64,000 bases of DNA. It comes from an uncultured Kiritimatiellota bacterium (GTDB lineage: Bacteria > Verrucomicrobiota > Kiritimatiellia > RFP12 > DVOR01). The notes beneath the pieces were generated by a model, which did not search any database, was not told the DNA's origin, and was given only the letters and a program-made list of their open reading frames with translations. This document shows positions 255-4,468 of this stretch, piece after piece (positions within the stretch are counted from its first letter, which is position 1; the number at the start of each line of letters is the position of its first letter). The stretch is from assembly GCA_944391085.1 (NCBI GenBank), contig CALXSE010000004.1, positions 1 through 64,000 of the forward strand. Direction: 5' to 3'. Position numbers and translations under genes: made by a program.

Positions 255-2378
255 CTATTCGGCAAGGGCCGACGGCTTCCTGTAAACGGTGAAGCCTTCG
301 GCCTCGGCGATGGGGCGCAGAGCGGCGGCGGGCGGCCAAAAGGCGCGGAAGGTCTCCTCTTGCTCGCGTTGGACGACTATCAGCGTGGCGTCCTCCAGCG
401 CCTGGCGGATGAGCGCGTCGTCGCGCCCAAGCTCCTCGGTGCCCCAGAAAAGGTTGGTGTTGTGGCAAACAGTGAGATTGGCGGGGACAAGACCACAATC
501 CACGTAGAGGTAGTAGGAGACAGGGTAGCGCTCCCGGGTTTTTTGCGGGAAGACGAAGAGGCGCTCGGCAGGGTCATCGTTGAATTGCGCGAGGGTGCGG
601 CTCAACTCTGGCAGGACACGCCCTTGCCAACCGCGCTTCACCACGGCGCCAGTGGCACAGATGCCCATGTCCAAGAGGAACATCGCGGCCAACGGGACGG
701 CCGCGCCGCCCCAAACCAGCGTGCCGATGGCCCCTTTGCCGAGCATGCCGAGGGTGTGTGTCAGCACCGCCAGGTAAAGGGCGAAGACGGAGCCGCCGAT
801 GACGAGATTGTGCAGGTAGGGCGAGACGATCAGCACCGGGAGAATCGTGAGGGAGGCAAACGCCAGGAAGAGCAAGCGCCGGCGCGCCTCGCCGGCCAGG
901 AAGGGCGCGGCCGCGAAGGCCGGGAGCACGCCCAAGGAGAGCTGCGCGATCCGCTCCACGGTCGGACGCAGGTTGTGCGTCCCATGGTGATAAGTGGGGT
1001 CGCCCAGAAGCGTGGTGACGGCGACCCACGAGCCGTCCATCGCGCGCAGAAAGAGGAGGTACGCGCCGACCGCCGCCGCAAAGCCGAGCGCCAACAGGGC
1101 CGCGTCGCGGAGTCGCCCGCCCCACCCCCGCCCAAAGAAGAGCACCGCCCAGCCCAGGACGCCGCCCCACACCAGCGCGTTCTGTTTGGAGAGATACGCC
1201 AGCGCCACGAAGACGCCGCACCAGAGCAGACGGCCCGGCCGCTTGGCCAGGAAAAAAGCCGCCAACGCCAGCGTCCCCCACAGCGCGCACCACGGCGAGA
1301 AGGGCCCATAGTGCGCGAACGTGAACACCAGCACGCTCAGCGCCGCGCCGTGCGCCAGCGCCCGAGACAGCCCAAAGGCCCGCGCCACGCGCCAGGACAG
1401 CGCCGCCACCGCCGTCGCCAGGCAGACGGCCACCCCGTGGAAGACCAGCGTCCCAAACCATCCCCCCAACAGCAGCTTGAGCGGCAGGAGCATCCAGTAG
1501 ACGGCCTGCGTGTACATGCAATGGAAGTCGACCAACGGGTAGAGCCCCTTGGCCATCAGCTGGACGACGTGGAGGTTGTAGGCGTCGTCGTTGAACACGA
1601 CCCGCCACGCCACCCAGACCGCCGCGCACGCGAAAAACGCCGCGTACGCCAGCGCGATGGGCACGCCGTAGCCGCCGCACGAGAAGTCGACCGTCTGCGC
1701 GAAGGAGCGGGCCGCGGCCTTGAGGAGCTTCCATTTCTTGATGGAGACCTCGCCGGTCGTCCGGTCGCGCTGGGGCACGGGCACCTCCAACAGGCGCAGG
1801 CGGTGGCGTGCGGCAAGCCCCGAGAGGATAACGTTGGGCGCGAAGGTCCCCGCCGGGATTTGCGCGAAGAAGGGCGCAAAAACCTCCGCGCGCATCAGGC
1901 GATACGGCGTGTTCACGTCCCAAATCCCCTTGCCGTAAAAGATCCGCACGCAAAGGCGCGAGACCAGGGAGACAAGCTTACGCGAAAGCGGCTGGCGGCG
2001 GCCGTCGCGCCGCCCCACCAGGAAGTCATACCCTTCGCGGCGGGCCCACAGCGCAGGAAAGGCCTCCGGCCCCATCTCATCGTCGGAATCGATCTGGAAG
2101 ACCCAATCCGAATCCTCGGCTGCCTCGCGGTAACCGCGCAGGATGGTGGGCCCGTGACCGGAGTTCGGCTTGTCCACAGCCAGGATTTTGCCGCCGGAAG
2201 CCTCGGCGGCCGCCGTGAGGATGGCCCCCGTGGCATCCTTTGAACCGTCGTTGTAGGCACGGATGCGGTAGCGGATACCGAGCGTGTCGAGCATGGCCAC
2301 CCATTTCCCGAGCACAGGCCCGATGGCCTCGGCCTCGTTGTAAACCGGCATGACGACGGAAAGATCGTACGGCTTCAT
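255..2378 (-). CDS. GT2 polyprenol-phosphate glycosyltransferase fused to a GT-C type membrane glycosyltransferase
   Basis: A 707-residue protein. Residues 1-235 form a GT-A (family 2) transferase: the start reads SVVMPVYNE, the metal-binding DxD lies near 97-99 (IDSDDE), and the fold matches GtrB/DPM-type enzymes that charge polyprenol phosphate with a sugar at the inner membrane face. From about residue 240 there are many membrane segments, with an acidic NDDAYN motif near 263-268 just after the first, as in GT-C enzymes that use lipid-linked sugars on the outer face. ATG 2378 is chosen because it has an AAAGGG ribosome binding site and overlaps the gtrA stop as ATGA. The likely role is lipid-carrier-mediated glycosylation of surface polymer or protein. 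The acceptor is unknown. Confidence 0.8.
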   Translation of the reverse strand: MKPYDLSVVMPVYNEAEAIGPVLGKWVAMLDTLGIRYRIRAYNDGSKDATGAILTAAAEASGGKILAVDKPNSGHGPTILRGYREAAEDSDWVFQIDSDDEMGPEAFPALWARREGYDFLVGRRDGRRQPLSRKLVSLVSRLCVRIFYGKGIWDVNTPYRLMRAEVFAPFFAQIPAGTFAPNVILSGLAARHRLRLLEVPVPQRDRTTGEVSIKKWKLLKAAARSFAQTVDFSCGGYGVPIALAYAAFFACAAVWVAWRVVFNDDAYNLHVVQLMAKGLYPLVDFHCMYTQAVYWMLLPLKLLLGGWFGTLVFHGVAVCLATAVAALSWRVARAFGLSRALAHGAALSVLVFTFAHYGPFSPWCALWGTLALAAFFLAKRPGRLLWCGVFVALAYLSKQNALVWGGVLGWAVLFFGRGWGGRLRDAALLALGFAAAVGAYLLFLRAMDGSWVAVTTLLGDPTYHHGTHNLRPTVERIAQLSLGVLPAFAAAPFLAGEARRRLLFLAFASLTILPVLIVSPYLHNLVIGGSVFALYLAVLTHTLGMLGKGAIGTLVWGGAAVPLAAMFLLDMGICATGAVVKRGWQGRVLPELSRTLAQFNDDPAERLFVFPQKTRERYPVSYYLYVDCGLVPANLTVCHNTNLFWGTEELGRDDALIRQALEDATLIVVQREQEETFRAFWPPAAALRPIAEAEGFTVYRKPSALAE

Positions 2379-2776
2379 TTGTTTCCCTTTCGAAACGTGA
2401 CACACTTGTTGAGCGTGAATTGCAGGACGGTGACGACAAAGATGATAACCAGCTTGGACAAGAGTTCCGGCCACCCCAGCACCCCCACGAAAAGCCACAA
2501 CAACGCCGCGCTCACCCCCAGCCCCAGCAGCCCCACGCAGTAAAACGAAAGGAAGCGCAACCACAGCCGATTCGTCCGCCGAAAATTGAGAAAGGCGTTC
2601 AGAAAGAAATTGTTGCAGATGCCGCACGAGACGCTGACCGCGTTCGCCAGCTGGTAATGCCACCCCGCGCCGTATACCAGCCCCGCGAACACCAGGCAAT
2701 CCATCGTCACCCCACTGCCACCGATCAGACAGTAGACCACAAACTCACGATACCGGCACCAAAGCCTCTCCAACAT
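2375..2776 (-). CDS. GtrA-like flippase family membrane protein
   Basis: A 133-residue protein with four predicted membrane helices, typical of the GtrA/DPMS3 family, which is thought to flip polyprenol-phosphate sugars or assist the linked GT2 enzyme. The family signature near the start (FVVYCLIGGSG) and the conserved NFFLNAFLNFRR stretch are present. Two ATGs are possible, at 2797 and 2776. The second is preferred because GGAAGGAAGG lies nine bases before it and its length fits the family. The gene overlaps the downstream GT2/GT-C fusion by an ATGA junction, so the two are probably translated together. Confidence 0.8.
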   Translation of the reverse strand: MLERLWCRYREFVVYCLIGGSGVTMDCLVFAGLVYGAGWHYQLANAVSVSCGICNNFFLNAFLNFRRTNRLWLRFLSFYCVGLLGLGVSAALLWLFVGVLGWPELLSKLVIIFVVTVLQFTLNKCVTFRKGNK

Positions 2777-2966
2777 AAAAACACGCCTTCCTTCCATACC
2801 CCCTTGAGGCCCTTGGAAAGCCCGTGATCGGATACGTGAAAGAAAGCGTGCCAGAACAGCACGCCTTGCCAAACACGTTGCCCAATCACTGAAATTTCCT
2901 AGGTTTCGGGTGTAGGCAACCTGTCGCGCAAAGCGCAAAACAACTATCGCGGCTCTCCCGCGACGT
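2777..2966 (-). promoter_or_regulatory. Structured 5' leader of gtrA, copy A
   Basis: A leader of about 190 bases runs from the predicted start of transcription (near 2966) to the gtrA ATG. A 13-bp stem pairs 2838-2850 with 2782-2794. The 3' arm contains the GGAAGG ribosome binding site and is followed by five T and then the ATG. The same stem, with compensated changes, occurs in copy B at 4213-4285. An alternative 9-bp pairing of 2859-2867 with the same 5' arm is possible in this copy. Function and ligand are unknown. Confidence 0.6.
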
Positions 2967-3004
2967 GCCCCCATGATAGCAAAACCGGCACGGGGATGGG
3001 AAGG
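2891..3004 (-). repeat. 114-bp promoter/leader core repeat, copy A
   Basis: This segment matches 4328-4441 at 113 of 114 positions. On the minus strand it carries an extended -10 (TGC TATCAT, 2973-2978) and, just downstream, the hairpin TCGCGG/CCGCGA near the expected RNA 5' end. No good -35 is seen. It lies at the same relative place upstream of gtrA as its twin does upstream of the GT8 gene. Confidence 0.9.
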
Positions 3005-3012
3005 TCGGTCGG

Positions 3013-3050
3013 GAAATAAAGAAACGAAGGCGGGCGCCCAGGCGCCCGCC
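3013..3050 (-). terminator. Terminator after the GT8 gene
   Basis: GGCGGGCGCC and GGCGCCCGCC form a stem of nine to ten bp, followed on the minus strand by TTCGTTTCTTTATTT. It lies between the GT8 stop and the gtrA promoter and so separates the two units. Confidence 0.6.
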
Positions 3051-3118: not shown

Positions 3119-4072
3119 TCACGGCAGAGGCGCCCTGGGTTGGGCTGGGCGTTTGAAGACCCGCAGACCGAAGAGGAAGCCCCGCGTGTAGCCCTTCTTT
3201 GTCTGCACGCTCCAGACGATGCCCCAGAGGTGCCCCAGCACGAAGCGCGCCGCCGCGCCACGCCATGGCGTGCGGAGCAGGGCGCATAGGTAGGGGAACC
3301 ACGTGCGGTTCCATGCCACGTTGCACCACGGCTTCTCGTAAGGGCCCATGTAGTGGCGAATGACGACCGGTTCCTTGGGGAAACGTTCCATCAACAGCGC
3401 CGTCATGCCGTAGCGGACGGGGAGCGGAAGGATGCGCCCCTGGAAGACGCGGTTGAGGACCACCTGATCGGAGGCCGCGAAGAATGGCGGCGGCAAAGTC
3501 TTCATGCACGCGGCGGCATCCGCGAAGAGGCGTCGTGTGGCGTCTTCCGCCCGGAGCCTGCCACAATCCATCAGCAAAAGCCCGGAGCAAAAATAAGGGT
3601 TGCCGTCGTGGAGGCCGATCGTCCGACGGTAACGCACCCACCCGGGCGAAGGCGTCGCGGCAAGGTCGCTCGCCTCGCGCACGGCCCCAAGCGGGCACCC
3701 CCGCAAATCCGTCTCCCAAAGCGGCCGCAACGGCCCCCGCACCAAGACGTCCACGTCCGAATAGAGGACGCGCGGCGCATCGATGACTTCCGGGATGCGG
3801 AAGCGGAAATAGGCTTCGCGCGAAACGTGCTCGAGCAGGGTCGGCAGGTCTCGCTCCTCTTTCTGCACAATGTCGTGGCAGACGATGGAAGCCGCCGCCG
3901 TCTCCATCGCGGCCAGCCTTTTCCTGTTCCCCGGCGAGAGATCCCCGCACAACACATGGAACACAAACCGCTCCCCCGGATTGCTTGCCAGGACAGAGGC
4001 GATCACCACGGCCGTATGGCAAACGAAGGAATCGGAGACGCAAAAGGCGAGGACAATGGGCTCCGCTTTCAT
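3119..4072 (-). CDS. Family 8 glycosyltransferase (LgtC/GspA-like)
   Basis: A 317-residue cytoplasmic transferase. The start (IVLAFCVSDSF) and the DVDVLV segment near residue 105, with its metal-binding DxD, are typical of GT8 galactosyl- or glucosyltransferases that build lipopolysaccharide outer core and related glycans. A later HYMGPYEKPW segment fits the conserved HxxGxxKPW motif of this family. ATG 4072 is chosen by homology of the N-terminus. It overlaps the TGA of a short upstream reading frame (4069-4206) as ATGA. The gene has a leader and promoter of the same type as gtrA, so the two units are probably co-regulated. Confidence 0.85.
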   Translation of the reverse strand: MKAEPIVLAFCVSDSFVCHTAVVIASVLASNPGERFVFHVLCGDLSPGNRKRLAAMETAAASIVCHDIVQKEERDLPTLLEHVSREAYFRFRIPEVIDAPRVLYSDVDVLVRGPLRPLWETDLRGCPLGAVREASDLAATPSPGWVRYRRTIGLHDGNPYFCSGLLLMDCGRLRAEDATRRLFADAAACMKTLPPPFFAASDQVVLNRVFQGRILPLPVRYGMTALLMERFPKEPVVIRHYMGPYEKPWCNVAWNRTWFPYLCALLRTPWRGAAARFVLGHLWGIVWSVQTKKGYTRGFLFGLRVFKRPAQPRAPLP

Positions 4073-4206
4073 TGGCGGCCCCCAATCCTGCGCCCGACAC
4101 GAAAACTCCGGCCGGCTACGCAAAAAAACCCACGTGGCACCCCCGCCGCCCCCTTCGCAGAAGGCGCCGCACAACAGCCTCCACAGCCATTCTCTCTATC
4201 GCACAT
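4069..4206 (-). CDS. Possible 45-codon leader peptide upstream of the GT8 gene
   Basis: The ATG at 4206 sits in exactly the place of the gtrA ATG in the duplicated leader: the 3' arm of the conserved stem, then a T-rich hexamer, then ATG. A GAAGG ribosome binding site lies within the stem. The frame has 45 codons, encodes a Cys- and Gly-rich peptide beginning MCDRENGCGGCC, and its TGA overlaps the GT8 ATG. It could couple GT8 translation to the leader. No family resemblance is recognised, so it may act only through being translated. Confidence 0.45.
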   Translation of the reverse strand: MCDRENGCGGCCAAPSAKGAAGVPRGFFCVAGRSFRVGRRIGGRQ

Positions 4207-4403
4207 AATAAAGCACACTTTCCTTCACCGTCTACCCCGAGGCCCTAGGAAAGCCCTGAAAGGAACGTGTGCAAGGAAAGTGCGCCAAAAATGACGCCTT
4301 TGCTTCTGACACGTTGCTCCTTCATCGGAAATTTCCTAGGTTTCGGGTGTAGGCAACCTGTCGCGCAAAGCGCAAAACAACTATCGCGGCTCTCCCGCGA
4401 CGT
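4207..4403 (-). promoter_or_regulatory. Structured 5' leader, copy B
   Basis: This is the counterpart of 2777-2966. A 13-bp stem pairs 4273-4285 with 4213-4225. Compared with copy A, one pair changes from G-C to A-T, and three others switch between G-U and Watson-Crick pairs, which keeps the helix. The predicted -10 (TATCAT) is at 4410-4415. Confidence 0.6.
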
Positions 4404-4441
4404 GCCCCCATGATAGCAAAACCGGCACGGAGATGGGAAGG
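4328..4441 (-). repeat. 114-bp promoter/leader core repeat, copy B
   Basis: Twin of 2891-3004 with one mismatch. It contains the extended -10 TGC TATCAT and the TCGCGG/CCGCGA hairpin. The flanking leader is only moderately conserved, so the core is under stronger constraint or was recently homogenised. Confidence 0.9.
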
Positions 4442-4468
4442 CCAGACGAAAAAGGCAACGAGTCTTCA

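Follow-up and report, generated by a model that had tools for sequence, protein, structure and literature searches.

A family of structured leader RNAs, candidate transcription attenuators, in front of restriction-modification and cell-surface genes of Kiritimatiellae and Bacteroidota

Two copies of a repeated leader, here called A and B, are probably members of a family of leader RNAs that act in cis and attenuate transcription in a riboswitch-like manner, as judged from comparative sequence analysis. They lie in a stretch of 64,000 nucleotides from an uncultured Kiritimatiellota bacterium (contig CALXSE010000004.1, hereafter the window). The RNA is approximately 190 nt long, starting at an extended -10 promoter and ending in a GC stem and a U-run; a conserved promoter position, a covarying core, mutually exclusive helices, a terminator-like end and a biased set of downstream genes are all seen. 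A preliminary description of the window had drawn attention to a covarying stem over the ribosome binding site. This stem is the expression platform alone and belongs to a much larger pseudoknotted domain. Both copies are matched by the covariance model R1 (191 positions, built from genus homologues), copy A at 2779-2969 with 160.9 bits and E 1.9e-44, its own sequence being part of the model, and copy B at 4211-4406 with 144.7 bits and E 7.2e-40, all E-values of our covariance models being rough because of a shortened calibration. The features of copy A and of the gene behind it are:

2973..2981, minus strand: extended -10 promoter element TGCTATCAT; the position of TA[TC]NNT is conserved in homologues
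2777..2969, minus strand: whole leader RNA A; start probably near 2968, U-run end just before the gtrA ATG at 2776
2947..2963, minus strand: hairpin H2; 99.5% of cells paired, two-sided changes in 4/6 pairs
2926..2938, minus strand: hairpin H3, from covariation analysis of the homologue alignment
2915..2921, minus strand: pseudoknot helix a, 5' arm; two-sided changes in 5/5 pairs
2891..2907, minus strand: hairpin K1 (GAAA..UUUC), whose loop CCUAGGAAA makes helix c
2882..2890, minus strand: helix d, 5' arm; two-sided changes in 6/6 pairs
2877..2883, minus strand: pseudoknot helix a, 3' arm, from homologue covariation
2844..2867, minus strand: hairpin H7, putative antiterminator or anti-sequestor, exclusive with the outer part of stem T
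2832..2852, minus strand: terminator stem T, 5' arm; two-sided changes in 17/18 pairs
2824..2831, minus strand: helix d, 3' arm, from homologue covariation
2808..2823, minus strand: hairpin K2 (GGGC..GCC), whose loop is the 3' side of helix c, with one A.A mismatch
2781..2797, minus strand: stem T, 3' arm, holding the GGAAGG ribosome site of gtrA
2777..2781, minus strand: U-run, followed by ATG at 2776
2378..2776, minus strand: gtrA-like gene (PF04138, 133 aa)

The corresponding features of copy B are:

4410..4415, minus strand: -10 element TATCAT
4209..4406, minus strand: whole leader RNA B
4328..4344, minus strand: hairpin K1
4277..4301, minus strand: hairpin H7
4266..4286, minus strand: stem T, 5' arm
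4241..4257, minus strand: hairpin K2
4213..4228, minus strand: stem T, 3' arm, with the ribosome site inside
3119..4072, minus strand: glycosyltransferase family 8 gene (PF01501), reached via the 45-codon ORF that the ATG at 4206 opens

The helices were evaluated on an alignment of 73 distinct genus homologues (A1), and all covariation counts were compared with shuffled controls that ignore phylogeny. Seven helices (H2, H3, a, b, c, d, and H7), one of them a pseudoknot, have 94.6% of their cells paired, with two-sided changes in 37 of the 44 pairs against 25.1 +/- 1.8 in the phylogeny-blind shuffles and 632 two-sided cells against 203. When the partners are slid by 1-3 columns, pairing falls to 36-49%. 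Stem T is paired in 91.3% of cells and changes on both sides in 17 of its 18 pairs (161 two-sided cells versus 41.2 +/- 8.4 shuffled), and H7 in 97.9% of cells with two-sided changes in 6/8 pairs. These two helices overlap at columns 142-149 and each of them covaries, so selection maintains both. A structure-free scan of APC-corrected mutual information ranks pairs from b, c, d, a, H2, H7, and T highest, and in an alignment-free swap test the own arms of a, b, d, T, and H7 pair better than exchanged ones in both phyla that carry the RNA. A few helices, b and d, leave 10-15% of their cells unpaired, a point against the model. G.U pairs outnumber A.C mismatches (221 vs. 75 across the helices, 163 vs. 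42 in T), and this excess on one strand indicates that selection works on the RNA strand. Each copy starts close to a GGCACG. TA[TC]NNT precedes this motif by 7-10 nt in 70 of 73 homologues and is extended by TG in 67, while a U-run (at least five T in 8 nt) closes the leader in 67/73 and an ATG follows the stem or U-run within 13 nt in 59/73. We dropped one further candidate helix, between the GGCACG at the 5' end and a CGUGUU located downstream of helix a, as its positions show no covariation.

The pairing first noticed in the window was confirmed at every position, 2838-2850 with 2782-2794 in copy A and 4273-4285 with 4213-4225 in copy B (13 of 13 each, minus strand). In structural register the stems of A and B differ as had been proposed, by one G-C to A-U exchange and three changes between G-U and Watson-Crick pairs, and the GGAAGG site of gtrA does lie inside the 3' arm of copy A. 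The segment 2859-2867, thought able to pair with the 5' arm of the stem, does so, as the 5' side of hairpin H7; the suggested two-state switch is supported by the finding that H7 and T exclude each other and both covary in homologues. That the stem is a selected RNA structure is borne out by the 73 homologues of the genus: a loss of covariation with more sequences, named beforehand as the outcome that would speak against it, was not seen, and T covaries clearly. It had also been stated that a start codon follows the arm after five or six mostly T bases in both copies. In copy A the GGAAGGAAGG arm is indeed followed by UUUUU and AUG (2776), and in copy B UUUAUU precedes an AUG (4206), but the latter begins an overlapping 45-codon ORF and not the glycosyltransferase-8 gene, which starts at ATG 4072. 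Of the two roles offered for the stem, closing of the ribosome site or termination, both find support, the terminator as the conserved output, with the covering of the site added to it in most copies from Kiritimatiellae. When the 3' part of A and B is folded, the terminator comes out as most stable (-35.7 and -38.7 kcal/mol).

The centre of the RNA is formed by two hairpins. GAAA..UUUC and GGGC..GCC flank the two sides of helix c and make hairpins K1 and K2, with variants CGAA/UUCG and UGAA/UUCA in K1 and GGU/ACC, AGGU/ACCU, and GAC/GUC in K2. Helix c would thereby be a 7-bp kissing loop between two loops of approximately 9 nt. Helices b and d probably pair across the hairpins, with a closing the first hairpin and the inner part of T closing the second; H7 clashes with the outer part of T only. 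In an alignment spanning the two phyla (A5), b, c, K1, and K2 are paired in 95% of cells, with 231 two-sided cells against 66 in shuffles that ignore phylogeny, and the two positions left free in the helix-c search pattern given below are perfectly complementary in 79 of 80 loci, in four combinations. Many members carry the kissing-loop sequence CCUAGG, a palindrome by which two such transcripts could dimerise via K1.

A DNA search finds 15 copies of the RNA in its own genome (1.7 Mb, Kiritimatiellae-type), and R1 finds 30. With R1 the count reaches 33 in a sister genome, 16 of the 17 genomes of the genus are matched, and so are 119 of the 162 genomes of the order, in 21 of its 33 genera. The helix-c pattern GAAACCTNNGAAATTTC ... 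TCNNAGGGCCTC, scanned against a single genome for each species, was matched exactly at least 115 times, in Bacteroidota and in MAGs labelled Kiritimatiellae or Verrucomicrobia, the Bacteroidota among the matches listed being Prevotella, Segatella copri, Xylanibacter brevis, Niabella, Pedobacter, Dyadobacter, Larkinella, and Muribaculaceae. With a second model built from A5 (R2, cut-off E <= 1e-6), the RNA was detected in 51 of 289 genomes drawn from across the phylum of the window, corresponding to 29 of 153 genera and including other classes; Niabella defluvii has 10 copies by this model and N. hibiscisoli has 8, both hosts having been picked because they carry a copy. Some copies of sister genomes form pairs 1-4 kb apart (L064:146-335 with L064:1283-1465; L034 with L042, at G005:C8:9462 and 13029), and one close pair has identical cores before GtrA-like genes. 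A divergent subgroup in the same genomes (L119, L120, L121, and L133-L138), scoring approximately 50-85 bits with R1, differs in its first hairpins and precedes short PEP-CTERM-like secreted proteins (MKKTxLTAAFAALAL), a conserved segment separating the U-run from the start codon.

A simple ORF rule served to choose the downstream genes, and these show a strong bias towards restriction-modification and towards genes for surface glycans or surface proteins. The 64 downstream proteins of the genus include Acyl_transf_3 (10), GtrA (8), PEP-CTERM (7), EcoRI methylase (5), group 1 glycosyltransferases (5), N6_Mtase (4), Mrr (4), FrhB (4), and Eco57I (3). Among 53 of Bacteroidota, family counts that overlap within single proteins are MmeI_Mtase 8, Eco57I 7, N6_Mtase 6, N6_N4_Mtase 4, EcoRI 2, TonB plug 2, and BspA repeats 2. 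PADLOC is in agreement, and behind several unnamed first genes restriction-modification genes are next in line. Seen from the genes, 21 of 30 EcoRI-type methylase loci of the order have the RNA approximately 20-180 nt upstream on the same strand, where we estimate a chance expectation far below one, given a few copies per genome of about 3 Mb. Some Bacteroidota copies have no gene close downstream, so that a leader role is proven for not all copies. In Pedobacter (L173:6105-7025 and L213) the RNA precedes a gene for a HEPN-domain protein of about 300 aa; HEPN is a fold common in RNA-targeting defence proteins.

A scenario that accommodates these features is the following. Transcription would begin at the extended -10 promoter that adjoins the RNA's 5' end, and H7, folding first, would occupy the 5' arm of the outer stem; should it last, polymerase would read through. 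The two hairpins, one made by a with K1 and the other by inner T with K2, may dock via c and the flanking b and d, and the closing stem of the second would continue into the GC stem and U-run as an intrinsic terminator. Docking, stabilised by a putative ligand or trans factor, would then join the terminator arms and turn the gene off, which makes H7 the default-on state. The direction, docking meaning off, is the least certain step, since the docked fold and the terminator are topologically compatible and the sequence would allow docking to turn the gene either off or on; as the closing stem of the docked core is continuous with T, we take docking to favour termination. With an AUG directly after the U-run the same stem would hide the ribosome site as well. 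Leaders of Bacteroidota and of PEP-CTERM genes retain T and the U-run with a start codon approximately 60-150 nt further downstream, which argues that termination is the primary output.

At gathering scores Rfam 15 gave a single match, one tRNA in the window, for the window and 38 homologous loci of both phyla, and permissive searches returned chance matches only, in line with the earlier remark that no riboswitch class fits. In the main texts of open-licence literature we found no description of an RNA upstream of restriction genes or of such a Bacteroidetes motif. The family is thus undescribed in Rfam 15 and the literature searched, and it may have been listed previously as an unnamed motif. 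The attributes of a riboswitch that we find are a structured cis leader 5' of the regulated gene (promoter, leader, and gene in this order in 73 members), an aptamer-like core covarying across distant taxa, and mutually exclusive expression-platform helices (H7 and T, which share columns and both covary, with the swap test in agreement in both phyla). The leader would work like a riboswitch or attenuator, and membership in the riboswitches would need a ligand. As PMC6478431 outlines it, the HMP-PP (thiS) riboswitch has its sensing domain embedded in the terminator, and here too the core runs into an intrinsic terminator that ends the 5' leader; our leader, by contrast, measures about 190 nt, combines kissing hairpins with a pseudoknot, precedes unrelated genes, and has no Rfam match. 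T-box leaders, too, are large 5' leaders in which terminator and antiterminator helices exclude each other, but Rfam finds no T-box here and the targets are not tRNA or amino-acid genes. Two hairpins docked through loop-loop pairing recall the purine riboswitch, whereas the present RNA is much larger, has a 7-bp kissing helix plus two inter-hairpin helices, and is unmatched in Rfam. A pseudoknotted RNA with a terminator upstream of a gene also occurs in type III toxin-antitoxin systems (ToxIN), which we rejected as a candidate: the RNA has no tandem antitoxin repeats and fronts not one toxin but many unrelated families (methylases, glycosyltransferases, GtrA, acyltransferases, PEP-CTERM proteins), no ToxN-like toxin being among them.

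The chemical diversity of the gene set is unusual for a metabolite riboswitch and counts against our preferred explanation, and other readings need to be weighed. It is possible, though we doubt it, that a protein reads the leader by binding the docked hairpins, either an RNA-binding protein acting in trans or a factor for processive antitermination of the RfaH, LoaP, or UpxY kind. The targets of these factors are surface polysaccharide genes, which the genes downstream of our RNA resemble, and one leader type common to many loci of a genome would suit such a factor, as RfaH/ops, LoaP/dfn, and UpxY likewise exert elongation or termination control at leaders of surface-polysaccharide operons. 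Dependence on RfaH, LoaP, or UpxY themselves was rejected, since the 17 genus genomes hold at most one NusG homologue each and no specialised paralogue was found there; the RNA is also large and structured, fronts restriction-modification genes too, and has its own switch, a terminator and an alternative hairpin for which those systems have no need. A signal-free RNA that, as a folding timer or a set-point for attenuation, delays or damps genes that are costly or were gained horizontally, restriction enzymes for instance, would explain why chemically diverse targets have only their accessory nature in common and would fit a terminator that is the most stable 3' fold in A and B. We regard it as unlikely, because a kissing loop, two internal junctions, and unpaired bases nearly invariant in two phyla exceed the needs of a fixed attenuator.

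Somewhat less likely still is control at the level of translation, with T merely hiding the ribosome site and an incidental U-run. The close AUG in 59/73 homologues and the GGAAGG inside T speak for it, but PEP-CTERM and Bacteroidota copies keep T and the U-run with the start codon some 60-150 nt away. Very improbable is a mobile or recombination element (a MITE, an attC-like site, or an invertible promoter) in which folded DNA and not RNA is active. Many dispersed copies per genome and the apparent partial homogenisation of A and B by recombination are what such an element would produce; the positions of promoter and U-run are nevertheless fixed, copies stand precisely before start codons, the viral contigs searched contained zero copies, and plasmids and phages held no similar sequence. 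In attC and other DNA recombination hairpins it is the folded DNA that acts, hence no strand bias of G.T over A.C arises, and this candidate was rejected on the three- to fourfold preference for G.U over A.C on one strand only. Returning to the riboswitch-like attenuator, a bolder and rather doubtful extension is that one switch class with up to approximately 30 copies per genome coordinates, through a new kissing-loop fold and in answer to a single infection or stress signal, a phage-facing regulon across Kiritimatiellae and Bacteroidota, composed of restriction-modification and of what phages encounter on the cell: glycans, acyl groups, and surface proteins.

An RNA this large, structured, and common that stands outside Rfam 15 would be a notable addition to bacterial regulatory RNA; its hundreds of copies reside in hosts that include human-gut and rumen Bacteroidota, such as Segatella copri, as well as soil bacteria. 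Its repeated siting before restriction-modification and surface genes suggests that phage-facing genes are controlled by transcript folding, and makes the question of how restriction systems stay in check directly testable; with Niabella, Pedobacter, Xylanibacter, and Segatella as cultured carriers, tests at the bench are possible.

Two observations concern the window itself. The 5' halves of A and B (2891-3016 and 4328-4453) are 95% identical over 126 nt, unlike their 3' halves. Copy A has a weak helix b and an A.A mismatch in helix c, while the helices of copy B pair well. The near identity to B and the poorer pairing of c and b suggest that the 5' half of copy A was overwritten by recent recombination or gene conversion. 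The 45-codon ORF that follows copy B (4072-4206) contains cysteine, lies in another frame and ends in a TGA that overlaps the glycosyltransferase-8 ATG, so that the two may be translationally coupled.
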